From Gammaproteobacteria bacterium (GTDB taxonomy: Bacteria > Pseudomonadota > Gammaproteobacteria > UBA9214), in NCBI GenBank assembly GCA_029859555.1, contig JAOUCV010000041.1, positions 1 to 11,697 on the forward strand: 11,697 nucleotides of DNA, in the 5' to 3' direction. How positions within the stretch are numbered: position 1 is the first letter of the stretch; the number at the start of each line of letters is the position of its first letter. This document shows, piece after piece, positions 1 to 11,608 of the stretch. The notes beneath the pieces are model-generated. The model was not told the origin of the DNA and made no database searches. It was given only the letters and a program-made list of their open reading frames with translations. Both the position numbers and the translations under genes were made by a program.

Positions 1-1
1 T

Positions 2-946
2 GCACGCCATGTTTGTGGTCGTCCGCTGCATGAGCTGATCCTGAATAAAGAGGTAATTGCCGATCAGCTCACAAAGATGCTGGGTACGGAGCAGCCGATT
101 ACGTACCGCCATTGTGTGCTCGAATTGCCGGATGCGCCCGATCTGTGCGTTAACTGCAACTTTACCCCGATCACTGATGAGCAGGGGGCAGAATATGTGC
201 TGCTTGAGATGCGCAAGGTTGATTTCCACCTGCGTATAGAGCAGGAGGAACACCTGATCACACAACAGCAGGCCACCCATGAACTGGTGCGCGGTCTGGC
301 CCACGAGATCAAAAATCCGCTCGGTGGTTTGCGCGGCGCGGCGCAGTTGCTGGAACGGGAGATCGAGGATGATGCCCTGCGTGAGTACACCGGGATTATT
401 ATTGGTGAGGCGGATCGCTTGCGTTCGCTGATCGATAACATGCTGGGCCCCAACAAGCCAGCCGTTATACGGGCGGTAAATATTCATCAAGTACTCGAAC
501 GGGTCTGTAATCTGGTATCTGTCGAGGCCGGCGAGCTGTTGCAGATTCACCACGATTACGATCCAAGTCTGCCGGATACACAGGCAGACCCTGACCTGCT
601 GGTTCAGGCGCTACTGAATATTGTACGTAATGCCGCACAGGCGCTGGATAATGCCGGCGATATCACGCTGCGCACTCGCATAGAACGCAATTGCAACATC
701 GGCGCTCGCATCCATCGACTGGTAACCTGCATCCAGGTTATTGATAACGGCCCGGGCATTGATGAAGCACTGCAGAAGCAGATTTTCTACCCGATGATTA
801 CCGGGCGCAGCGAAGGCACCGGGCTGGGACTATCGATTGCCCAGGCGCTGATCAGTCGCCATCAGGGCCTGATTGAATGCAGCAGCGAACCGGGCCAAAC
901 AATATTTACCATTTTGCTACCACTGGAAGCAGGGCATGAGTCATAA
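2..946 (+). CDS. glnL: Nitrogen regulation sensor histidine kinase NtrB (5' end outside window)
   Basis: Sensor kinase/phosphatase of the NtrBC two-component system. It responds to the PII protein and phosphorylates NtrC when nitrogen is limiting. The reading frame is open from base 2, so the N-terminus is missing; 314 residues are visible against about 350 for the family, so roughly 35-45 are lost. The first part is the end of a PAS-type domain. The phospho-accepting His is in LAHEIKNPLGG (His codon 302-304). The ATPase domain shows the N box (NIVRNAAQAL), the G1 box (DNGPGI) and a FYPMITGRSEGTGLGLSIAQ stretch combining the F and G2 boxes. No membrane segment is seen, as expected for this cytoplasmic kinase. 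The end overlaps ntrC by 11 bases, so the two are probably translationally coupled. An internal ATG at 77 is not the true start, because PAS-like coding continues upstream of it. Confidence 0.95.
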   Translation, partial: ARHVCGRPLHELILNKEVIADQLTKMLGTEQPITYRHCVLELPDAPDLCVNCNFTPITDEQGAEYVLLEMRKVDFHLRIEQEEHLITQQQATHELVRGLAHEIKNPLGGLRGAAQLLEREIEDDALREYTGIIIGEADRLRSLIDNMLGPNKPAVIRAVNIHQVLERVCNLVSVEAGELLQIHHDYDPSLPDTQADPDLLVQALLNIVRNAAQALDNAGDITLRTRIERNCNIGARIHRLVTCIQVIDNGPGIDEALQKQIFYPMITGRSEGTGLGLSIAQALISRHQGLIECSSEPGQTIFTILLPLEAGHES

Positions 947-2348
947 CCAGAAAATCTGCGTCATCGATGATGACAGTTCAATTCGCTGGGTGCTTGAAAA
1001 GGCGCTCGCTAGCGCCGGCCTGCAGGTAGAGTTGCATGAGTCTGCCGATAATGCGCTGGCCGTCATTAAACAGCAGGAGCCAGCCGTTGTTGTTACCGAT
1101 ATTCGCATGCCGGGCATGGACGGCCTGGAGCTGCTTGAATTGATAAACAGCCAGTACCCGGATCTGCCGGTGATCATCATGACGGCACACTCTGATCTGG
1201 ACAGTGCGGTGTCCGCCTACAAGGGTGGTGCTTTCGAGTACCTGCCGAAACCGTTTGATGTTGATGATGCGGTCGCACTGGTAAATCGTGCGCTGGAAGC
1301 CCGCGCACAGCAGCCGGCCGGAAGCGTACCGCTGTCGCAGCAGGATGTGCCGGAAATTATCGGCAAGGCGCCGGCGATGCAGGAAGTGTTTCGTGCCATC
1401 GGCCGGCTTTCCAATTCCAACGCAACCGTGCTTATCAACGGTGAATCGGGCACCGGTAAAGAGCTGGTGGCGCTGGCACTGCACCGCCACAGCGCGCGGG
1501 CTGCAAAGCCGTTTGTGGCACTTAATATGGCAGCCATACCGCGTGATCTGCTGGAATCAGAGTTATTTGGACACGAGCGTGGCGCCTTTACCGGCGCACA
1601 AAACCGGCGCGCCGGCCGTTTTGAACAGGCTAATGGCGGCACGCTGATGCTGGATGAGATTGGTGATATGCCGGCGGAATTGCAGACCCGTTTGTTACGG
1701 GTACTGGCTGATGGCGAGTTTTACCCGGTCGGCGCGCATGCACCGAAAAAGGTTGATGTACGTATTATTGCAGCGACTCATCAGGACCTGGAGCAGCGGG
1801 TTCGGGATGGTGCGTTTCGTGAAGACCTGTTTCACCGCCTCAATGTTATTCGTATTCAGCTGCCTGCCCTGAGGCAGCGGCGTGAGGATGTTCCGCTGTT
1901 AATGGACTATTTTCTGCAGCGTGCTGCACGCGAGCTTGAGGTCGAAACCAAGTCCCTGGCCAGCGACACGACCACGTTGCTGGTGCAGCTCGACTGGCCC
2001 GGTAATATCCGGCAGCTGGAAAACCTGTGTCGCTGGCTGACGGTGATGGCACCTGGCCAGGAAGTACGCCCGGAGGATTTGCCCGGGGATTTGCATGCTG
2101 CGGGCACTGCAGGCGCTGCAGTTGCTACAGCGGGTGCTGACTGGCAGGGCCTGTTGCGACAGTGGGCGCAGCAGCAACTGGCTGCTGGCAGCGAGCGCCT
2201 GCTGGACGAGGCATTACCAGACTTTGAAAAGGTGCTGATAGATGTTGCCTTGCAGCAAACCGGTGGGCGCCGTCAGGATGCGGCCCGCCTGCTGGGCTGG
2301 GGGCGAAATACCCTGACGCGCAAACTGAAGGAGCTGGAACAGCAGTAG
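936..2348 (+). CDS. glnG: Nitrogen regulation response regulator NtrC (sigma-54 activator)
   Basis: Phosphorylated by NtrB, this enhancer-binding protein drives sigma-54 promoters of nitrogen-assimilation genes. From the ATG at 936 it is 470 residues, almost the same as the enterobacterial protein. Receiver domain: acidic D11-D13, phospho-acceptor D55, T83 and K105. AAA+ domain: Walker A GESGTGK at 169-175, the sigma-54 contact loop GAFTGA at 216-221, and Walker B with D240-E241. C-terminal Fis-type helix-turn-helix: the stretch containing QQTGGRRQDAARLLGWGRNT. The reading frame is also open further upstream, with an ATG at 873. The start at 936 is preferred because the protein then begins MSHNQKICVIDDD as in the family, with a GGAAG ribosome site at 925-929. 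No strong terminator follows; the next gene starts 196 bases on. Confidence 0.96.
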   Translation: MSHNQKICVIDDDSSIRWVLEKALASAGLQVELHESADNALAVIKQQEPAVVVTDIRMPGMDGLELLELINSQYPDLPVIIMTAHSDLDSAVSAYKGGAFEYLPKPFDVDDAVALVNRALEARAQQPAGSVPLSQQDVPEIIGKAPAMQEVFRAIGRLSNSNATVLINGESGTGKELVALALHRHSARAAKPFVALNMAAIPRDLLESELFGHERGAFTGAQNRRAGRFEQANGGTLMLDEIGDMPAELQTRLLRVLADGEFYPVGAHAPKKVDVRIIAATHQDLEQRVRDGAFREDLFHRLNVIRIQLPALRQRREDVPLLMDYFLQRAARELEVETKSLASDTTTLLVQLDWPGNIRQLENLCRWLTVMAPGQEVRPEDLPGDLHAAGTAGAAVATAGADWQGLLRQWAQQQLAAGSERLLDEALPDFEKVLIDVALQQTGGRRQDAARLLGWGRNTLTRKLKELEQQ

Positions 2349-2544: not shown

Positions 2545-4935
2545 GTGATACGTATAGCTATTGCCGCTATTGTTCTGCTGTCACTTGCATACGCAGGATT
2601 AACGCAGCTGCAGTCGTCTGACCGTGCCGCTGAGGGCACACAGGGCAATAACATCCGTCAACAGAGCCAGCCGCTGCTCCCTCCCGTCGGGCAGTCCGGG
2701 CCGCGTCTTGCCGGTACGGCTGTACGCCACGATGAACCAGCCCGTAGCAATGTATCTCCCGATGAAACGGTGGCAACGGTTACCGTTGTCGAGTCGGTGC
2801 CAGCAGCGGTAGCCGCTAGCAGTGAGCCTGTAAGTGAACCGGCAGCAGCGGCAATAGCCAGTAAGGCGCTTACTGGTAGCAACGCTGCAGCAGAAGCAAC
2901 AGACAAGGCTACGATCGCAGACGCACCTGCCCGGGATGAACCGGTAATGCAGCCGGTACTGGCGGGGCCACTGGATAACGCCGAAGAATCAACCCTAGCA
3001 GCTGCATCAGGTGACGTACCCGGGCAGGCCGCGGGCGAGCTGCCAGCTGCAGCTGATAGCAGCGTTTATATTGATCAGCTGATCGACCCGTCAGCCATGG
3101 AGGCAGATTCGCTGTATCCCGGTTTTGCAGACGCAGAAGAGCCGCAAGGCTTTCGCAGCTACAGCACCGAGTACCGTCATTACCAGCAGGATATCGACAA
3201 GGCCGGTAAGTCCTACGAGGACGGCTTTATCTTTCATGCCCGGCGGGAGACACGCGATTACGGCGAGTTTGAGTTGCTCGCGACAATACGCAATGACCGG
3301 CCCTCGAGTGACTCGGCGGATGATGAAACCACCGGTGGCCGTCTGACCCTGCGTCAATACGGTTTTGCACTCAACCAGAACTGGTTGCTGGACAACAGTG
3401 CCGGCGTGCTGCGCAGTGATTCCGATCAGGTGCTGAGTAACAGTTACCGTTTTAACCTGCCCTCGACGCTGGTGTCCGGGCTGAAAAACTGGTCACGTAA
3501 CGAGCATACCCAGTTGCGTTTCAGTGCGGGAAAAATAGGTACTCTGGGTACCGGTCGTATTGAGGACTTTGATACCACCTCCGGCACACTCGCTACGATG
3601 AACATCAGCCATGCACTTACTGATCGCTGGCTGATGTCCGGCCAGCTAATTGCACTGAACGATTCTGACGAGGTGCAGGACCATGAGACCGGGGCGGTTG
3701 CGTTGCAATACCGGAGTGCCGACCGGCGGCATACCTATGTGGGCCACACCTTGACGGGCAGTGCCGGTGGCGATGCTGTCTGGCTCGATGGTGATAACCA
3801 GTTTGGCCGCTGGCGTCAGCGTTACGGTATTTTCTGGCTGGAGCCGGAGCTGTTGTGGAGTGATGCCAGTCTGACGGATGACCAGCAGGGTATTTATACC
3901 CGCTCGGAACTGCGCTCGCAGCGTTATAACCTGACCGTGGGCACTGACTTCAACGAAAACAATATCAATGATAACAGTGCATTACCAAAGAACCGGTTTA
4001 CCAATCTATTCCTTACCGGTAACCGTCGCCTGCAACGTACCACCAGTGTTGGCGGTACCGCCAGCTATCTTGATATCGATCCGCGCAACGCAGCCGCCGG
4101 AGACGAGTCACGCGTCATACGCCTGACCGGTTATGTGCAGCAGCGCTTTGGTCTTGGTGATACGCGCCTGGAAATCACCGGTGCAGACATAGAAAAAAAT
4201 AACGACAATGGCAATGTCTATGGCGTCACCTGGGACCAGAGCTGGAACGTACACCGCTGGCTGACGCTTTCTACCACGCTTGCGCATGAGCAGAGCAGCG
4301 GCCTGAGTGACGACCAGAAACGCGACTCTGCCAGTGTGCTGTTTACCCATGATGTCACACCCGATTTTCAATGGAATGGCAGTGCTACTTACGCGCACGT
4401 AAAAAACGACGGCGACCCCGGCAGGGACAACTACAACGTCGTGCTCGGCAGCGCCTGGCAGTTTCTGCCGAACTGGGTTGCCCACCTGGACCTGACCTGG
4501 TCACGCGCAGAAGAGAATACCGGTGTACTGGATGAGCTGTTTGATGTCGACGAGAAGACCCTGTTGCTGCGTATCAAGCACAGTATCCGTAGCGGGCGAG
4601 CATTTATGACGGCCGGCAACAAGACGGGATCCTCCGGTTATGGTGAGGTCAGGGGCGAAGTGTTTTTTGATGATAACCGTGACGGTGTACGCCAGGCAGG
4701 TGAGCGTGCCGCCAGTGGCATTTTTGTCTACCTGGATAATCGCTACGAACGGGTAACCGACAATGAAGGGCGTTACAGCTTCAGCGCCGTGCAGGCTGGC
4801 GAACACGCGGTGAGCATCGCGGTTGAGGATTTGCCGTTGCCGTGGGGGCTCGAGGATGACAGGCCACAGCCGCTGACGGTAACTGTGCGGGGTGTTACAG
4901 AGGCCGATTTCGCGCTCACGCGCATCGTGCAATAG
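2545..4935 (+). CDS. Predicted outer-membrane barrel with C-terminal SdrD/Cna-B-like domain; candidate usher-like protein
   Basis: A 796-residue exported protein I do not recognise as a named gene. Residues 1-20 form a hydrophobic signal or anchor (IRIAIAAIVLLSLAYAG). Residues about 25-195 are low-complexity, rich in Ala, Pro, Glu and Ser, probably a periplasmic spacer. Residues about 205-695 are rich in alternating polar/hydrophobic stretches separated by Asp/Asn/Gly turns, with many Trp and Tyr, as in a large beta barrel; about 490 residues is near the size of a fimbrial usher barrel. Residues about 698-796 resemble the SdrD-B/carboxypeptidase-regulatory fold: GEVFFDDNRDGVRQAGE, then TDNEGRYSF and AGEHAVSI. 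The start is the only usable start codon, a GTG with a weak ribosome site; the frame is closed by TAA at 2512-2514. It converges on the chaperone and subunit genes, ending 17 bases from the chaperone stop. The usher role is inferred from context; no canonical usher N-terminal or plug domain was seen. It could instead be another surface-export barrel. Confidence 0.6.
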   Translation: MIRIAIAAIVLLSLAYAGLTQLQSSDRAAEGTQGNNIRQQSQPLLPPVGQSGPRLAGTAVRHDEPARSNVSPDETVATVTVVESVPAAVAASSEPVSEPAAAAIASKALTGSNAAAEATDKATIADAPARDEPVMQPVLAGPLDNAEESTLAAASGDVPGQAAGELPAAADSSVYIDQLIDPSAMEADSLYPGFADAEEPQGFRSYSTEYRHYQQDIDKAGKSYEDGFIFHARRETRDYGEFELLATIRNDRPSSDSADDETTGGRLTLRQYGFALNQNWLLDNSAGVLRSDSDQVLSNSYRFNLPSTLVSGLKNWSRNEHTQLRFSAGKIGTLGTGRIEDFDTTSGTLATMNISHALTDRWLMSGQLIALNDSDEVQDHETGAVALQYRSADRRHTYVGHTLTGSAGGDAVWLDGDNQFGRWRQRYGIFWLEPELLWSDASLTDDQQGIYTRSELRSQRYNLTVGTDFNENNINDNSALPKNRFTNLFLTGNRRLQRTTSVGGTASYLDIDPRNAAAGDESRVIRLTGYVQQRFGLGDTRLEITGADIEKNNDNGNVYGVTWDQSWNVHRWLTLSTTLAHEQSSGLSDDQKRDSASVLFTHDVTPDFQWNGSATYAHVKNDGDPGRDNYNVVLGSAWQFLPNWVAHLDLTWSRAEENTGVLDELFDVDEKTLLLRIKHSIRSGRAFMTAGNKTGSSGYGEVRGEVFFDDNRDGVRQAGERAASGIFVYLDNRYERVTDNEGRYSFSAVQAGEHAVSIAVEDLPLPWGLEDDRPQPLTVTVRGVTEADFALTRIVQ

Positions 4936-4952
4936 TTATTATAAACAAAGAG

Positions 4953-5756
4953 TTATTTCAGCGTAGTGTCAATTTTCTGTTTGCCGCCACGCCATTCAAT
5001 AGTGCCTTCAAGCTGTAGCGGCGGACTCAGTTTACTGGCTTCCGCACCTTCGGCTATGACCTCCCAAATAGCGGTTTCACGGCTGCGGCCTGGCAGTATC
5101 GGTGTCTGCGCAATGGCGAAATCAATGCGCGTGCCATTGGCGTCGCGGCCTTCCAGAAAGCCGGACGGGCGACCGTGTGCGTTACCTGAATTTTCCAGTA
5201 TCGCCACCGGTGTCAGGCGACCGTTCACATCCTGCAGCTTCAGTGACTGTACCGTCAGTTCGGGTGTTGCATCACCGATGGCCACATATATGATAATCGC
5301 GATGCGACCATCAATCGGGAAGCTGATGTTTTTGGCACGCGCCAGTATGCCGCTGTCATCGCCGGACTCAACCAGTATCGCCACCCGGCATTCACCCGCG
5401 GGTGCATCTTCAGGAACATGAATTTCAAAGCGGTAACGCTTGCCCGACTGTGCCTGCAGTCGCAGTGCTCGCCGTTCAATACGTACCCACGGGCGGCAAC
5501 TGTTCGGCTGTAACTCGGGCGGGAAAATAGTCAGTCCGCCACTGTCGGTCAGGTCCCAGTCGGCAGTGCGTAGCGCAAACAGGGCCGGTGTGTCACCGGC
5601 ATTGTCAATCTCGACAATTTCGCGAATGACTTCACCCGGCTTGCCCTGTAATTCAAATCGCGGTGGCGAGACGGTCGCTGAAAAACTGTCTGCCAGTACC
5701 GGATTGAACAGCACTGCGGTGATTGCCATGAGCAGGCATGCAAGTCTTTTTGTCAT
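4953..5756 (-). CDS. Periplasmic pilus-type chaperone (PapD/FimC-like)
   Basis: A 267-residue exported protein with the layout of fimbrial chaperones: signal peptide (MTKRLACLLMAITAVLFNPVLA, then DSFSATVSPPRFEL) and two Ig-like domains. Domain 1 has the family-like opening VSPPRFEL, then EIVEIDNAGDTPALFAL. The G1-like strand GRIAIIIYVAIGD (about 150-162) has the alternating hydrophobics that chaperones lend to subunits in donor-strand complementation. Domain 2 follows (VQSLKLQDVNGRLTPVAILENSGNAHG). Cys87 and Cys123 could form a disulfide. An alternative TTG start at 5768 overlaps the upstream stop codon and would add four residues; the ATG at 5756 gives the more normal signal peptide. Neither has a good ribosome site, so translation is probably coupled to the gene upstream. 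It is last in the minus-strand set. The assignment as a chaperone-fold protein is fairly firm; its clients are inferred from neighbours. Confidence 0.75.
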   Translation of the reverse strand: MTKRLACLLMAITAVLFNPVLADSFSATVSPPRFELQGKPGEVIREIVEIDNAGDTPALFALRTADWDLTDSGGLTIFPPELQPNSCRPWVRIERRALRLQAQSGKRYRFEIHVPEDAPAGECRVAILVESGDDSGILARAKNISFPIDGRIAIIIYVAIGDATPELTVQSLKLQDVNGRLTPVAILENSGNAHGRPSGFLEGRDANGTRIDFAIAQTPILPGRSRETAIWEVIAEGAEASKLSPPLQLEGTIEWRGGKQKIDTTLK

Positions 5757-5764
5757 GTCAAAAT

Positions 5765-6241
5765 TCAATATAATTCAATGTCATAAACGGGTTCGAAGCG
5801 CAGGTTGTTATAGACCTGGCGGGCATCGATTTCAAACGTTATATCAAAAACATCGGTCATCACGCGCTCTGTGATTTCACCCTCAAACAACTTGACACGA
5901 TTACCCGCAGTCAGGGAGCCGTTCGAGAACCGGCCGTTGGTGGTCCAGCTCATGCGCAAGGCGCTGGAATCGGCGGTGCCGCGTATATTGAGTGGCAGGG
6001 TAATAAAAATTCTGCCACGTTGACCGATATAGGGCGCGGTATTCAGGCGGATCTCAACACGACGTGCCCTGGCGATCAGTGCATTCAGTTCGCGTGTGTC
6101 AAGATTCTCGGTGCCATGCTGTTCCTTCCATACCAGGTCAACGTCAAACTGTTGCTGTGTCGACAGTGAATCATCCAGCCGTTCAGCATGTAGCGGGTTA
6201 CAGGCTATAAGTGCTGTCAGCAGCAGCCAGTATTGTTTCAC
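5765..6241 (-). CDS. Small exported protein, probable third fibre subunit or accessory
   Basis: A 158-residue protein with a clear signal peptide (MKQYWLLLTALIACNPLHA, mature end near ERLDDSLS). The rest looks all-beta (VEIRLNTAPYIGQRGRIFIT, DVFDITFEIDARQVYNNLRF) and ends in DIELY with a terminal aromatic residue, as pilin-like subunits often do. A MSWTTNG stretch resembles ISWTARDG in the subunit encoded just upstream, so it may be a divergent relative. The GTG at 6241 overlaps the upstream TGA stop (GTGA) and gives the best signal peptide; an ATG at 6253 would add four residues. The stop overlaps the alternative TTG start of the chaperone gene. I do not recognise the family. It may be a tip, terminating or anchoring component, which is inference. 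Confidence 0.7.
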   Translation of the reverse strand: MKQYWLLLTALIACNPLHAERLDDSLSTQQQFDVDLVWKEQHGTENLDTRELNALIARARRVEIRLNTAPYIGQRGRIFITLPLNIRGTADSSALRMSWTTNGRFSNGSLTAGNRVKLFEGEITERVMTDVFDITFEIDARQVYNNLRFEPVYDIELY

Positions 6242-6774
6242 GGAACCGCCCATGTGTAGATCACATGTCCTTCGTAGGTGCCCGACTCGATCTCCAGGGT
6301 ATTGGCATAACTGAAGGTGTGGAAGTCGCGGTAGCGTTGCGAGCTTTGAAAACTGACGATGTCCTGGTCTATTTCATCCTGAAAGGCGCCCGAAGGGATG
6401 TCTCCGTCCCGCGCTGTCCAGCTGATTTCCGAAAACGGGATGCTGCTGGTGCTGCCCGGGTCGGTGTTCTCCAGCGGATTGCTGAGTGAATCGACCGTCA
6501 GGAAGCCGGTAAGCGGGTTGGCCGCGGATGCACGGATCAGGACCTGGATTCTGACGCGGCCGGCTGCCGTTATCGGATTGTTGTCACCGATCTGGCCGGC
6601 AGGAACCGTAAAGGCTACTTCTGTGATGTTGCTGCCGGCGGCGCCGACACGGATGTTGATGCGCGGGGTGGCGCGGTTATTCAGGTTGAAAACAACGGCA
6701 TCGGCCATTGCGCACCATAGGGCGCAGACAAGCAGCAGGCTCTTCAAAACTGTAGGCAGGGTGTGACCGGGCAT
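6238..6774 (-). CDS. Exported pilin-like subunit (minor), paralogue of the upstream subunit
   Basis: A 178-residue protein with a signal peptide (hydrophobic LKSLLLVCALWCAMADA, mature start near VVFNLNN). The remainder appears all-beta. It shares with the first subunit (6901-7509) an early block (IRVGAAGSNITEVAFTVPAG here; FRVGSDAGTIDLVQFTPTAA there), a following GD motif, and the C-terminal layout SYANT...GTYEGHVIYT...P (TYDNT...GGRVTYT...P there). The C-terminal G-x-V-x-YT motif is like the beta-zipper end of chaperone-usher pilins. The ribosome site before the ATG at 6774 is poor, and a strong hairpin lies between this gene and the major subunit gene, so lower expression is likely. It overlaps the next gene by four bases if that gene starts at GTG. 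Possible roles are adaptor or tip subunit. Confidence 0.72.
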   Translation of the reverse strand: MPGHTLPTVLKSLLLVCALWCAMADAVVFNLNNRATPRINIRVGAAGSNITEVAFTVPAGQIGDNNPITAAGRVRIQVLIRASAANPLTGFLTVDSLSNPLENTDPGSTSSIPFSEISWTARDGDIPSGAFQDEIDQDIVSFQSSQRYRDFHTFSYANTLEIESGTYEGHVIYTWAVP

Positions 6775-6836
6775 GGCATTGCTCAGGGAAGGTCGTTGTT
6801 ACGCTGTATGCTACCTTTGCGCAGCCCTTAACAACA

Positions 6837-6866
6837 AGGGCCATGTCTGTTTCCAGACATGGCCCT
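6837..6866 (-). terminator. Strong hairpin between subunit genes; probable partial terminator
   Basis: A perfect 13-base-pair stem (6837-6849 with 6854-6866) and a 4-base loop. On the minus strand the stem is followed by TGTTGTT, a T-rich but broken tail. It lies 34 bases past the stop of the first subunit gene and 63 bases before the next start. This fits an intrinsic terminator or an mRNA-stabilising stem that keeps the major subunit message in excess. It is the strongest hairpin I found in the window. Confidence 0.75.
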
Positions 6867-6900
6867 GTGCATGTTGCGGGTCATTGCGTGCCGCGTAATG

Positions 6901-7509
6901 CTACGGCGAAGCTGCGGTGTAGGTCACGCGGCCACCCTGTGTGTTAACGCCACCGTAGGTACCTTCCGGATAAACGTCCGTATTGTCATAGGTATAGGTC
7001 CATGACTCGGTCAGGTTGGTGACGCGCGAACCGCTGGTGGGTGGTGGTTGTGAGGTGGTGCCGCCGGCATCGGAAAGTACCGGTACCGGTAATACGGCTG
7101 CATCACTGCTTGAGGTGAGGATCTCGTCGTATGAGATAGTGTCGCCCAGGCCATTGTCCAGGCCGGCACCGCTACTGTTGTTGGTCGGGGTAATGGTGAT
7201 TTGTCCGGCATTACTGAATAAATCAACCGTGACTTCACCACCCGTCAGGTCGCCACCGGTACCGTCGATGTCGGTATCGTCACCGAGGTTGGCCGCCGTC
7301 GGGGTGAACTGCACCAGGTCGATGGTGCCGGCATCACTACCGACGCGAAACCGCAGGATGCCCGGGATATTGATCTGGAAGTCCAGACGGGCGGCTGCAG
7401 ATAACGGCGTGGCGCCGTCGTCAGATGTTGCTTCAGCCAGGAGTGTGCCTGGCATCGCCGTCGCCGCCAGAAGAGCGGTTGTGACTATTTGTTTGTAAAT
7501 ATTTTTCAT
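6901..7509 (-). CDS. Exported pilin-like subunit, probable major subunit
   Basis: A 202-residue protein: signal peptide 1-26 (MKNIYKQIVTTALLAATAMP, cut near LLAEA), then an acidic, Gly/Thr/Asp/Ser-rich all-beta sequence without cysteine. Residues 41-57 (RLDFQINIPGILRFRVG) start the conserved core. A Pro-rich linker TTSQPPPTSG lies at 151-160. The C-terminus (WTYTYDNTDVY, then GGRVTYTAASP) has the aromatic-rich final strand typical of pilin-like subunits. The ATG at 7509 is chosen because it has an excellent ribosome site (GAGGGAGG, minus strand, 7514-7521); an in-frame ATG at 7536 would run through that site. First gene of its set, best ribosome site and a hairpin behind it: all argue for the most abundant component. 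No named family recognised. Confidence 0.75.
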   Translation of the reverse strand: MKNIYKQIVTTALLAATAMPGTLLAEATSDDGATPLSAAARLDFQINIPGILRFRVGSDAGTIDLVQFTPTAANLGDDTDIDGTGGDLTGGEVTVDLFSNAGQITITPTNNSSGAGLDNGLGDTISYDEILTSSSDAAVLPVPVLSDAGGTTSQPPPTSGSRVTNLTESWTYTYDNTDVYPEGTYGGVNTQGGRVTYTAASP

Positions 7510-7510
7510 G

Positions 7511-7536
7511 ATGCCTCCCTCGGCGGCAGCTGGCAT
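7511..7536 (-). repeat. Inverted repeat flanking the major subunit ribosome site
   Basis: On the minus strand ATGCC (7536-7532) and GGCAT (7515-7511) can pair around a 16-base loop. The second arm overlaps the end of the Shine-Dalgarno GAGGGAGG. A five-base stem is weak and may be chance, but it would touch the translation start. Confidence 0.2.
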
Positions 7537-7684: not shown

Positions 7685-8656
7685 CTAGCTGCCGGCGCAG
7701 GGTGCGACTGGCGGGGTATTCAGGGTCAGGCTGCCGGTGAGTTTTTGTACGGAGCTGAGTCCGTGACGGTCAAGGTAGTCCATGATGCCGTGGTTGATTT
7801 TGCTGCAAATCAGCGGGTCATAGAACAGGGCCGTGCCGACACCCACGGTAGTGGCGCCGGCAATCAGAAATTCAATGGCATCCTCTGCATTGATGATACC
7901 GCCCTGTCCGATAATGGGAATGTTGTGGTCTTTGCAGACCTGGTAGACCTGGTGCACTTTCAACAACGCAACCGGCTTGATGGCCGGGCCGGACAGGCCG
8001 CCCTGGTTGTTGCCGATGATCGGTGTGCGTTGCTCGATATCAATGGCCATGCCCATCAGGGTATTGATGACCGCAAAGCCGTCGCTGCCGGCCTCGATAC
8101 AGAGGCGGGCATTGCCGGCAATATCGGTCTGGTTGGGTGACAGCTTGGTGATCAACGGTTTGTTGGTAACCGCGCGACAGGCAGCTACCACGCGCGCCGA
8201 CATGTCCGGGTCATTGCCAAAAGTGACGCCGCCCTCTTTTACATTCGGGCAGGAAATATTGATCTCGATAGCATCGATGGGGGAGTCGTCAAACAGCCGG
8301 GTGACTTCGGCATACTCTTCCACCGTTGAACCGGAAACGTTGGCAATAAAACGTGTTTCAGTGAAATCCAGCGACGGCAGAATGTGCTTCACTACATGAT
8401 CGGTACCGGGATTCTGCAGGCCGATCGCATTCAGCATGCCGCCGGGTGTTTCTGCGATCCGGTGAGGGCGATTGCCGAGCCGCGGCGCCCTGGTCGTGCC
8501 TTTAAGGCAAACAGCGCCGACATCGCGGTTGGAAAAGCCGGCAACCCGGGTATATTCTTCGCCGAAGCCAACGCAGCCGGATAGCAGCACCAGCGGTGTT
8601 GCCAGCGATAGCCCGCAGAAATCCACCGCGAGTTTTTGCCGGTCTGCTTCAGTCAT
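7685..8656 (-). CDS. pyrD: Dihydroorotate dehydrogenase, class 1B type catalytic subunit
   Basis: FMN flavoprotein of the de novo pyrimidine pathway, oxidising dihydroorotate to orotate in the cytoplasm. The 323 residues match class 1B features: [10 protein letters not shown] (27-36), [12 protein letters not shown] (73-84), [13 protein letters not shown] with the catalytic base Cys136 (131-143), KLSPN (171-175), a [10 protein letters not shown] phosphate-binding stretch (219-228) and [11 protein letters not shown] (250-260). There is no N-terminal membrane helix as in the quinone-linked class 2 enzyme usual in gammaproteobacteria. Class 1B enzymes normally work with PyrK, an FeS/FAD subunit; no pyrK lies in this window. 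The ATG at 8656 is chosen because the domain begins there; a longer frame to 8731 would run into trmL. Its start is 35 bases from the divergent trmL start. The enzyme could act on a related substrate, but all the key motifs are present. Confidence 0.88.
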
Positions 8657-8691
8657 TTTCAAAACTGCTGTCAATTCAAAAAGGTTCCTGG

Positions 8692-9159
8692 ATGTTTCAT
8701 ATTGTGCTCTACCAGCCGGAGATACCGCCAAACACAGGCAATATCATACGCCTTTGTGCCAATAGCGGCAGTGCCCTGCACCTGATTCATCCACTGGGCT
8801 TTAGCCTCGATGATAAAAAATTACGCCGCGCCGGGCTCGATTACCGTGAATGGGCGGCCGTGCGTGAACATGTTTCACTGGATGCATTTCGCAAGGACGT
8901 AAACCCGGCCCGTTTGTGGGGGGTGTCGACCCGGGGAGCAACGGTTTACGCAAAGGCTCGATTTGAGGCGGGCGATGCCTTCCTGTTTGGTCCGGAGACC
9001 CGGGGTCTGCCGGATGCGGTGCTGGGTGAGCTGGGTGAAGCCGCCGTGTTACGTCTGCCCATGGCCAGCCACAGTCGCAGCTTGAATCTGTCGAATACGG
9101 TAGCCGTGCTGGTCTATGAAGCCTGGCGCCAGCAAGGGTTTCAGGGCTCAGCCGAGTGA
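8692..9159 (+). CDS. trmL: tRNA (cytidine/uridine-34 2'-O)-methyltransferase TrmL
   Basis: SPOUT-family enzyme that 2'-O-methylates the wobble base of leucine tRNAs using S-adenosylmethionine; it acts as a dimer. 155 residues, as in E. coli (157). Motifs: [14 protein letters not shown] (13-26), FGPETRGLP (99-107), [20 protein letters not shown] (120-139) with the conserved SLNLSN forming the cofactor knot. The ATG at 8692 has AAGG seven bases upstream. Frames open further upstream would overlap the pyrD start and lack homology. The end overlaps the gpsA end by 12 bases, tail to tail. Confidence 0.95.
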
Positions 9160-10155
9160 CTCCGGTTTGACCTCGCGTGCCAGCAGGTTTCGAACTGCGT
9201 CGGCCGGTGATAGCTGATCATACAGAACCCGGTACACCTGCTCGGAAATCGGCATATCCACCTTGTATTTTTTTGCCAGCTGAAGCACTTCACCTGCCGT
9301 GTTGAAACCTTCCACCACCTGACCAATCTCCTGCAGCGCGATTTCCAGGCCGGTTCCCCTGCCCAGTGCCAGCCCCAGGCGGCGGTTGCGTGACAGGTCA
9401 TCTGTACAGGTCAGTATCAGGTCGCCAACACCGGCCAGCCCCATCAGGGTTTCACGGTGGGCACCCATGGCATCACCAAGGCGAATGATCTCCGCCAGTC
9501 CGCGGGTAATCAGTGCGGCCCGGCTGTTGGCGCCGAGCTGCAAACCGTCGGTAATCCCGGAGGCAATCGCCAGCACATTTTTTACCGTGCCGCCGAGTTG
9601 TACTCCTGCCATGTCGTCGCTGGTATAGACGCGCATGCTGCCGCCATGCAGGCGGCTGGCCATGTCATTGGCAAATGCCGGGTTGCTGGATGCGACGGTC
9701 ACAGCCGTTGGTAGTCCGGCAGCGACTTCCCTGGCAAAGGTTGGTCCCGACACCACGGCAGCGGGATAACGGCTACCGAGCACTTCCTCGAATACTTCGC
9801 TCATGAACTTGCCGCTGCCATTTTCCAGGCCCTTGGTGGCCCAGGCAATGCGCGTGTCAGGGTTGAGCAGGGGAGCCAATGCCGTGAGGACCTCACGAAA
9901 CGCGTGACTGGGTACAGCCAATAACAGGTCACGGCTGGCGGCGACGGCCTGCACCAGATCGGGCTCAATCGTTAAGTTGTCCGGGAACGGATATCCGGGT
10001 AGAAACTTGCTGTTCTGGCGTTCACGGGACAGTGATGCCATGAATTCCGGTTCATGACCCCACAGGCAGGTGGCGTTATTGTTGGCGGCCAGTCGCAGCG
10101 CCAGAGCGGTTCCCCACGAGCCGGCACCGAGAACCGTTATTGTGCGGCTGTGCAT
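9148..10155 (-). CDS. gpsA: Glycerol-3-phosphate dehydrogenase [NAD(P)+]
   Basis: Reduces dihydroxyacetone phosphate to sn-glycerol-3-phosphate, supplying phospholipid synthesis; cytoplasmic. 335 residues, the usual length. The Rossmann motif GAGSWG is at 10-15. Catalytic region: ATKGLE (106-111) with K108, [12 protein letters not shown] (136-147), and [13 protein letters not shown] (189-201) with catalytic K192. SRNRRLG at 255-261 is the conserved substrate/NAD loop. The ribosome site before the ATG at 10155 is weak, and a small hairpin sits just upstream. It is the last gene of the arsR-rhodanese-secB-gpsA series, 61 bases after secB; secB-gpsA adjacency is common in gammaproteobacteria. 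Confidence 0.96.
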
Positions 10156-10162
10156 ATTGTTG

Positions 10163-10176
10163 CCACATTCGTGTGG
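10163..10176 (-). repeat. Small hairpin in the secB-gpsA gap
   Basis: CCACA (10163-10167) and TGTGG (10172-10176) pair around a 4-base loop, ending seven bases before the gpsA ATG. There is no T run, so it is not a clear terminator. It may affect gpsA ribosome access or be chance. Confidence 0.25.
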
Positions 10177-10216
10177 TCGTTCATTGTGCTATACCGGCAG
10201 ATAATTACAGGCAATA

Positions 10217-10705
10217 TTATTGCTCGCTGGAAGGATTTTCCTGTTCGTCCCGGGTTTTTTGCAGCTTTTGTTCATACATCGCTGCAAAGTGCATTGGCGG
10301 GAGCAGTAACTGCGGGAACCCGCCCTTGGTAACCAGGTCCGATAATGCAGCACCGGCATATGGATACAGGGTGTTCAGGCAGTAAACCTGCTGGAGACGT
10401 TCCAGGACGTCAGCTTCGAACCCTTTCAGGGTAAATATACCGGCCTGGTGAACTTCAGCCAGAAAGGCTGTTTTATCATTTACCGATACCGTTGCTGTAA
10501 CAGACAAGGTGACTTCGTAGAGATCACCATCCAGCACGGCGACTGCATTGTTCATTTCCACTCCAAGCTTCGGTTCCCATTTCGTGGTGAACAGTTCCGG
10601 AGAATTTGGCGACTCGAATGAAACGTCTTTCAGATAAATTTTTTGAGGGCGCCTGATTGTTTTGTTTTCATCGGCCTGTGCTTTCGGTTGATCATCTTCT
10701 GACAT
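10217..10705 (-). CDS. secB: Protein-export chaperone SecB
   Basis: Cytoplasmic tetrameric chaperone that keeps precursors unfolded and hands them to SecA. 162 residues, in the family range. Characteristic stretches: KDVSFESPNSPELF, YEVTLSVTATVSVNDKTAFL with AEVHQAGIF following, CLNTLYPYA, and GGFPQLLLPPMHF. The N-terminus (first 20) and C-terminus are charged and disordered, as usual. A GGGA ribosome site lies before the ATG. It starts 33 bases after the rhodanese stop and is presumably co-transcribed. In E. coli and Pseudomonas the glutaredoxin gene grxC sits between these two; here there is no room for it. SecB is fitting next to a locus with several exported proteins, but it is a housekeeping gene. 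Confidence 0.97.
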   Translation of the reverse strand: MSEDDQPKAQADENKTIRRPQKIYLKDVSFESPNSPELFTTKWEPKLGVEMNNAVAVLDGDLYEVTLSVTATVSVNDKTAFLAEVHQAGIFTLKGFEADVLERLQQVYCLNTLYPYAGAALSDLVTKGGFPQLLLPPMHFAAMYEQKLQKTRDEQENPSSEQ

Positions 10706-10738
10706 GGTGTATTCCCGGCTTGAAATGTAACGGTGTAA

Positions 10739-11173
10739 TTACTGATTATTTTTGCTAAGCGGCAGCGCTTCTTTTTGCCAGGCCAGCAATCCGCCCTTTA
10801 GATTGTAAACTGACTCGAAACCCTGTTTTTTAAGCTTGCCACAGTATCCACTGGAACGCTGTCCGCGCTGGCAGTAAACAATAACCGGCTTGTCGCGGTA
10901 TTTTGCAAGCTTGTCTGAATGGTCAGCCGGATCTGCCGGTAGATGCAGTGCATTTACGATGTGACCTTCACGGTAATCCTTGTCCTCGCGCATATCAACC
11001 AGCACGGCGTTGTCATGGTTGATCATTCGAATTGCCTCGCCCGGGGCAAGCTCCCTGATACCGCTGATGCGTGACTGTATTTCACTACCGATCAGCATGG
11101 CGATAATGGCAAACAGGGCCATCACCAGCAGCATGTGGTTGCCGGCAAACTCAGTCAGTTGGTTGATGTCCAT
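10739..11173 (-). CDS. Membrane-anchored rhodanese-like protein (YibN type)
   Basis: A 144-residue protein with one N-terminal transmembrane helix (about 14-30, MLLVMALFAIIAMLIGS) and a single rhodanese domain (about 38-138). The active-site loop is VYCQRGQRSS with catalytic Cys101; Asp60 precedes the conserved R-x-x-x-x-Y-x-x-GHI (REDKDYREGHI) element. It should carry persulfide sulfur on Cys101; the acceptor is unknown. The family is the one found upstream of secB in E. coli (yibN). It follows the ArsR-type regulator by 75 bases and precedes secB by 33, so it could be co-regulated with either. Confidence 0.92.
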   Translation of the reverse strand: MDINQLTEFAGNHMLLVMALFAIIAMLIGSEIQSRISGIRELAPGEAIRMINHDNAVLVDMREDKDYREGHIVNALHLPADPADHSDKLAKYRDKPVIVYCQRGQRSSGYCGKLKKQGFESVYNLKGGLLAWQKEALPLSKNNQ

Positions 11174-11221
11174 AAACGATTCTGGCCGCTATTGTTTTGT
11201 AATGATGGCCCTGTCCTGATT

Positions 11222-11237
11222 ACCGTTGTGCAACGGT
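11222..11237. repeat. Near-perfect palindrome between regulator and rhodanese genes
   Basis: ACCGTTG (11222-11228), two bases, CAACGGT (11231-11237): seven perfect pairs. It lies 11 bases past the regulator's stop on the minus strand and about 50 bases before the rhodanese start. No T run follows on either strand, so it is not an obvious terminator. It may be an operator, an mRNA processing stem or a weak attenuator. Confidence 0.45.
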
Positions 11238-11248
11238 CCGGAATATAG

Positions 11249-11563
11249 TCAGGGCCGGGTGCAGAAAACTTCCCGCATCATGCCGATCAGGCGCAGGGTA
11301 CGTGCATCGCCGACGCGATAATAAACCCGGTTGGCGTCCTTGCGTGAGGCGAGTATGCCCTTGTCGCGCAGGATGGCAAGGTGTTGTGAGATATTGCTCT
11401 GGGATGTGCCGACACGCTCTACGATATCCTGTACGCTGATTTCCTGGTCACCGAGGGTGCACAGGATTTTCAGTCGTAGCGGGTGGGACATAGCCTTGAG
11501 GGAGCGCGATGCCCGCTCGATATCTTCCTCACGGGAGATGAGTGGTTCACTGCTTGCAGACAT
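11249..11563 (-). CDS. ArsR-family regulator, BigR/SqrR-like candidate persulfide sensor
   Basis: A 104-residue winged helix-turn-helix repressor of the ArsR family: KAMSHPLRLKILCTLGDQE (23-41), then the recognition helix region VGTSQSNISQHLAILRDKG and the wing SRKDANRVYYRV. It lacks the ELCVCDL metal site of arsenic/cadmium sensors (ISVQDIVERVG instead). It has exactly two cysteines in the contexts ILCTL (Cys35) and REVFCTRP (Cys101), 66 residues apart. In BigR and SqrR, as I recall, the redox pair (Cys41/42 and Cys107/108) has this same spacing and contexts, and forms a disulfide or tetrasulfide on reaction with persulfide. The ATG at 11563 is preceded by GAGAGG; a TTG five codons upstream would overlap that ribosome site. 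The next gene is a rhodanese, which fits sulfur-linked control. Effector and targets are inferred. Confidence 0.85.
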   Translation of the reverse strand: MSASSEPLISREEDIERASRSLKAMSHPLRLKILCTLGDQEISVQDIVERVGTSQSNISQHLAILRDKGILASRKDANRVYYRVGDARTLRLIGMMREVFCTRP

Positions 11564-11608
11564 GGTTCGACCTCTCAAACTTCTGAAACGATATGGGTTA
11601 CTGCATTC

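Follow-up and report, generated by a model that had tools for sequence, protein, structure and literature searches.

Introduction

Chaperone-usher systems fall into classical, alternative (alpha; CFA/I and Ecp) and archaic (sigma; Csu and CupE type) clades, and their loci carry subunits, a periplasmic chaperone and an outer-membrane usher with an N-terminal loading domain, a plugged barrel and two C-terminal domains, CTD1 and CTD2. Gram-positive WxL clusters combine DUF916/DUF3324 proteins with WxL proteins and, to our knowledge, have no outer-membrane usher. Here we describe five genes at positions 2545-7509 of an 11,697-nucleotide stretch of DNA from a gammaproteobacterium (contig JAOUCV010000041.1; the whole stretch analysed is called the window below). 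We consider that they encode a divergent chaperone-usher pathway building a thin putative surface fibre, with a probability of about 0.8, and that their likeliest function is fibre assembly by donor-strand exchange via a reduced usher. This reading is carried by the gene set and its co-occurrence, by the remote homology of the chaperone and the usher, by the predicted fold of the long subunit, and by the presence of a donor extension in one subunit and its absence from the other. Among the open-licence PMC papers listed in our searches, no title or abstract opening describes such a locus.

Gene content and conservation of the cluster

All five genes encode proteins with a signal-peptide-like N-terminal stretch (by eye), nothing else lies between them, and the remaining listed open frames overlap these five. 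The set named in an earlier note on this DNA is confirmed: a chaperone, two pilin-like paralogues, a third exported protein and a large barrel protein. The barrel gene (2545-4935, plus strand, 796 aa) lies tail to tail with a minus-strand operon that runs from a 211 aa subunit through a 178 aa subunit and a 162 aa protein to a 271 aa chaperone. Within the operon the 211 aa gene stands apart by 126 bases, and the three genes that follow it overlap or nearly touch.

In a sample of 144 genomes around the window's own, the chaperone was matched in 12 (nine strongly, at E < 1e-50, and three at 1e-5 to 1e-3) and the barrel gene in 21, across the barrel region in 10 and only at the SdrD_B-like C-terminal domain in 11. 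In nine of the ten barrel-region genomes the barrel and chaperone genes are clustered together, a co-occurrence of the kind that the earlier note had suggested looking for, and these nine are the only strong chaperone carriers among the 144. The exception, genome G107, holds a barrel without the C-terminal domain, chaperone or subunit genes in the 16 kb examined; this stand-alone 559 aa homologue (L083, 6687-8363) may be an orphan barrel or the remnant of a decayed system.

When a collection of species genomes was scanned, 14 loci were confirmed. Most records bear the titles of gamma- and betaproteobacteria; one is named as Rhodospirillaceae, one simply as Pseudomonadota and one as 'Halobacteria archaeon' (L055). 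The last is probably a mislabelled assembly, because a contig alike in length and content (G006:C26) belongs to a genome of the window's own genus. When the sources were combined and duplicates removed (L015-L020 are the same as L052-L057 and were counted once), 21 copies with both barrel and chaperone remained; the orphan in G107 falls outside this set by definition. In 18 of the 21 copies (proteobacterial assemblies), barrel and chaperone are accompanied by a member of the 162 aa family and by two or more subunit frames; the locus is kept as a gene cluster. The earlier note's reading of a divergent chaperone-usher-like locus is supported. The three incomplete copies are L021 and L057, which stop at a contig end (in L021, 70 residues of a member of the 162 aa family are still seen), and L024, which lacks the 162 aa family. 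The five genes form a unit.

Occurrence is patchy: outside the window's own genome, 3 of 12 genomes sampled from the genus and 1 of 10 from elsewhere in the family have the system, and many of these genomes are incomplete. The barrel gene is convergent to the others in 15 of the 21 copies, the window included, and all genes share one direction in the other six; a single layout change fits both the barrel and the chaperone trees with middling support (92/95 and 79/89). At two loci (L062, 2721-13115; L063, 2742-13197) the system occurs twice in succession, once as a single operon and once in convergent layout. When 299 genomes of the phylum were searched with the barrel alignment, 35 matched; only G000 and G129 cover the barrel, and nearly all other matches are confined to the SdrD_B-like domain. 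Likewise, three plasmid records matched the barrel protein in its C-terminal part only.

The chaperone

The chaperone gene occupies 4953-5756 on the minus strand when read from the likely ATG at 5756 (267 aa; open frame 4953-5768, 271 aa). To judge from its sequence, the product is a two-domain, PapD-like periplasmic chaperone, though a remote one, and the family forms a clade separate from the canonical chaperones. The profile of the 21-member family, from which L025-L027 were excluded, matched that of 11 canonical chaperones at 97.5% and E 7.8e-12 over 194 columns (residues 25-236 of 271) in hhalign, all E values from which are single pairwise comparisons of home-made profiles. Against 36 canonical chaperones the family scored 96.3% (E 1.9e-9) and single copies 32-96%, with at least 50% in 19 of 21 and 35% for the window's copy; six barrel-protein decoys stayed below 1%. 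Arg113 and Asn193 occur in all 21 chaperones and align with an Arg (34/36) and an Asn (36/36) of the canonical rows. Arg128, present in 20 of the 21, aligns with an Arg of EcpE, which we interpret as the residue that anchors the subunit in archaic and alternative chaperones. A tree that includes the 36 canonical sequences puts the 21 new chaperones in one clade (100/99), and this clade, together with the chaperones of L025, L027 and a Deinococcus locus, is split from all canonical rows (100/99; long branches present). EcpB and EcpE of the alternative clade, in contrast, fall among the canonical rows.

The chaperone also resembles DUF916 proteins, which raises the possibility that the locus is a Gram-negative counterpart of WxL clusters, in which a DUF916-like protein and small surface proteins would be displayed without strand exchange or fibre growth and the barrel would serve as their anchor. 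WxLIP_PGBD was matched at E 1 by the first domain of 10 of the 21 chaperones (best 1.2e-7; not by the window protein), a comparison with an Enterococcus DUF916/DUF3324 protein gave 88% and E 3e-6 in hhalign, and a proline of the chaperone superfamily, discussed below, is absent from the new family. Both kinds of cluster encode small exported proteins, and one subunit relative (P0255, from Lysobacter korlensis) bears the UniRef name 'WxL domain-containing' but has no WxL domain according to Pfam. We nevertheless regard this explanation as improbable. The chaperone's similarity to PapD is the stronger one, the new system has an outer-membrane barrel that is usher-like, Gram-positive WxL clusters are not known to have an outer-membrane usher, and the subunits do not match WxL: none of 37 did so in Pfam at E 1, and hhalign gave 0.1% against three WxL domains.

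The barrel protein as a probable reduced usher

By sequence, the barrel protein family is a remote relative of the canonical ushers, and what aligns with them is the final stretch of barrel strands together with CTD1. A real usher, EcpC, scored just 13% against a 16-row usher profile and FimD alone did not match the barrel profile (1.2%), and deeper usher profiles were therefore built. With these, the last barrel strands join the alignment (E 8.3e-9, 246 columns), and eight barrel sequences of the single-operon side align over the last strands and CTD1 at E 4.4e-12 (204 columns). Single barrels scored 7-95% against 26 archaic-like ushers (at least 50% in 10 of 21) and 1-93% against all 44 ushers (at least 50% in 5 of 21), while six Escherichia coli barrel proteins used as decoys reached at most 3.1% and EcpC 95% and 96%. 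EcpC itself did not match the new barrel profile (0.6%).

The C-terminal domain (4621-4932) matches SdrD_B at residues 705-759 (E 4.7e-8), and 52 of the 53 barrel homologues in our alignment match SdrD_B at E 1. It also aligns with usher CTD1 in profile comparison (E 5.3e-8); against 16 canonical ushers it gave E 2.5e-6, where a profile of 27 other SdrD_B domains gave 0.0037. Its match to those 27 domains (E 9e-20) is partly circular because they were picked with the SdrD_B model itself. The domain is still of SdrD_B type as well as CTD1-like. It had been proposed that an SdrD/Cna-B-like domain stands here instead of usher parts; the alignment with CTD1 speaks against a foreign replacement, and this proposal is not supported.

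Other usher parts were not detected, and here the barrel without a recognisable usher N-terminal domain that the earlier note described is upheld. No usher-type N-terminal domain is among the Pfam families listed for the 53 homologues, PapC_C/CTD2 was not found in them by Pfam, and the N-terminal half of the proteins gave no confident profile alignment with ushers. Nor was a plug identified by profile, a part that can be resolved only with a structure. The barrel region itself (3157-4614, about residues 205-690) may hold some 24 strands, a number that is uncertain since the 24 peaks from residue 206 to 673 were obtained at the laxest threshold of a crude score poorly calibrated on FimD.

Ahead of the barrel, an Ala/Pro/Glu-rich linker follows the signal peptide (2596-3063, about residues 18-173; by eye) and leads to the short peptide YIDQLI (3067-3084), a candidate docking tail. 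This peptide is the conserved piece of the region, found by a loose pattern in 15 of the 21 copies and in 44 of the 53 aligned homologues, in which its Y and D are nearly invariant; the pattern in L024 is probably a chance match inside the barrel. In the relatives where YIDQLI was found the linker is mostly shorter, and two have longer ones with uncertain starts. Two of the 53 homologues match LysM (best 0.0012), and the N-terminus of the barrel protein at L060 3234-5948 looks LysM-like by eye, yet gives no LysM match; such an N-terminus could tie the platform to peptidoglycan. Weak similarity to the barrel family is also seen in a further protein of 1000 aa (P0180; E 2.3e-7, covering 25% of the query), which by eye carries copper-amine-oxidase-N-like stretches ahead of a barrel.

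Could the barrel be an unrelated porin or exporter that happens to stand beside a fimbrial-type operon? Its likeness to ushers is weak when the barrel alone is considered, the generic OMP_b-brl model touches 10 of the 53 homologues (best 2.5e-4), and the barrel of G107 stands without partners. Such a chance neighbour would not be expected to share a cluster with the chaperone in nine of ten genomes or a single operon in six copies, nor to end in usher-like strands followed by CTD1. On the decoy comparison and the co-occurrence we rejected this candidate, which the earlier note had named as a possible refutation, and consider it very improbable, more so than the other alternatives.

Another alternative is an ordinary archaic system that has merely diverged beyond the reach of Pfam. 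The best usher similarity is to the archaic-like set, Arg128 fits the anchoring Arg by alignment, and the locus shares with archaic systems a PapD-like chaperone, subunits of a single domain whose last strand is of AGTY type (by eye), and the usher barrel end with CTD1. In contrast, the new chaperones lie outside all 36 canonical rows, among which archaic members were recognised partly from neighbouring pilin ends rather than from curated labels, and they lack the conserved proline. Of four archaic-like ushers scanned, every one has matches to PF00577 and to PapC_C (for PapC_C, two lie under the cut-off), unlike the new barrels; the subunits do not match 15 archaic-type pilins by profile, and in the window's clade the barrel gene is convergent. 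We therefore find the archaic explanation unlikely. Nor does the locus match any described usher clade in full, as the earlier note had considered, because PF00577 matches none of the 53 barrel homologues at E 1.

Subunits and the third exported protein

The long-type subunit (6901-7509, minus strand; 202 aa from the likely ATG at 7509, open frame 6901-7536 of 211 aa) and the short-type subunit (6238-6774, minus strand, 178 aa) gave a weak direct BLASTP match (30 residues, E 0.008). With the sequences split by hand into the two types (18 and 19), the resulting profiles align with each other across 168 columns at E 4.4e-29, which substantiates the paralogy proposed from the first inspection. 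The long subunit carries a donor-strand-like N-terminal extension, ARLDFQINIP, that its short paralogue lacks; this difference suggests that they are the major pilin and the tip, respectively. An AlphaFold2 model of the long subunit (mean pLDDT 86.8) has a pilin-like fold with no seventh strand. Its 50 structure neighbours, a re-ranking of Foldseek's top 1000, include by our own count nine rows from outside chaperone-usher systems, namely TLP-1a/b, two cannulae, TasA, CEP192, two glycoside hydrolases and an integrin. In all of the 37 subunits examined, which are fewer than all subunit frames in the clusters, the chain ends directly after the last strand, and none matches SCPU at E 1. Neither an archaic-pilin nor a FimA-type or EcpA identity was borne out by sequence.

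The third protein (5765-6253, minus strand, 162 aa) may be a minor subunit or an accessory protein; the window's copy has no Pfam match, and its family counts 19 distinct relatives within the clusters. Downstream of the long-subunit gene, the putative major pilin gene, the spacer before the next gene holds a 13-bp perfect stem with a GAAA loop (6837-6866, minus strand). Four of five close relatives (L016, L017, L018 and L020; not L015) have a perfect stem of 10-16 bp at the same place, and ten more distant spacers have 9 bp, 6-7 bp or none.

Proposed assembly pathway

Several points weigh against a chaperone-usher pathway. At E 1, PapD_N hits none of the 21 chaperone copies in Pfam. The window's own barrel is weak when compared alone (23% against the 26 archaic-like ushers and 1.6% against all 44), and the barrel profile without its C-terminal end reaches 27% against ushers. 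Finally, a Pro of 35 of the 36 canonical chaperones aligns with Arg in the new family, in a profile alignment rather than a structure, and since an excerpt of PMC4654587 describes this Pro as invariant in the superfamily, its absence is, on that account, a real departure. Pro119 is not the counterpart of this residue.

Taking the data together, we infer the assembly steps, all of the roles, the docking and the fibre itself as follows. Signal peptides would take the subunits across the inner membrane into the periplasm, where the G1 strand of the periplasmic chaperone (around GRIAIIIYVAIG) would complete the unfinished Ig-like fold of each subunit and the free subunit C-terminus would be held near Arg128. 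The chaperone-subunit complex would then be passed to the outer-membrane barrel, an usher reduced to barrel and CTD1. As a usher N-terminal domain was not detected, the conserved N-terminal YIDQLI tail may serve for docking instead. The tip position would go to the short subunit, which has no donor extension and would enter first; long subunits would then be added by donor-strand exchange, each through its ARLDFQINIP strand, and the fibre would exit through the barrel. The 162 aa protein may act as a minor subunit, adaptor or terminator.

It is conceivable, and we put this forward tentatively with the odds somewhat against it, that the locus represents a separate deep chaperone-usher branch beside the classical, alternative and archaic clades, with an usher that lacks the N-terminal domain and docks on YIDQLI, and with proline-less chaperones that link PapD-type proteins to the DUF916 proteins of Gram-positive WxL clusters. 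If so, chaperone-usher and WxL surface systems would share an origin. An usher seemingly without a loading domain offers a test of which usher parts are essential, and since the chaperone resembles both PapD and DUF916, a connection between surface assembly in Gram-negative and Gram-positive bacteria can be put to the test.

Annotation, flanking genes and related loci

Pfam leaves the four small proteins without a name and gives only SdrD_B/CarboxypepD_reg-type matches in the large protein; in NCBIfam all five go unnamed, with weak chance-level matches only, and PHROGs gave no meaningful match for the four small proteins. As the Pfam and NCBIfam profiles are blind to the system, such loci stay unannotated.

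The five genes are flanked by an ntrBC-like two-component pair on one side (window 1-2348, by eye) and a dihydroorotate-dehydrogenase-like gene on the other, the latter being the PyrD-like member of a stretch with gpsA-, secB-, rhodanese- and ArsR-like genes (7685-11578, mostly named by eye). L016 and L017 look to have the same flanking genes, which suggests a fixed chromosomal place for the cluster in this group.

Three other unannotated loci combine a chaperone with a large barrel protein: L025 (7922-11299, G037), L027 (6487-10691, G128) and L082 (5892-11638, on a Deinococcus psychrotolerans plasmid), with small exported proteins also in L027 and L082 by eye. Besides chaperones that group with the new clade (100/99), they share domains of SdrD_B or CarboxypepD_reg type close to the ends of their barrels. 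They differ from the window's system, and among themselves, in their barrel proteins: those of L027 and L082 are unmatched by usher profiles and have Ig-like domains at their start (partly by eye), whereas that of L025 aligns with ushers over 663 columns, the N-terminal part included.
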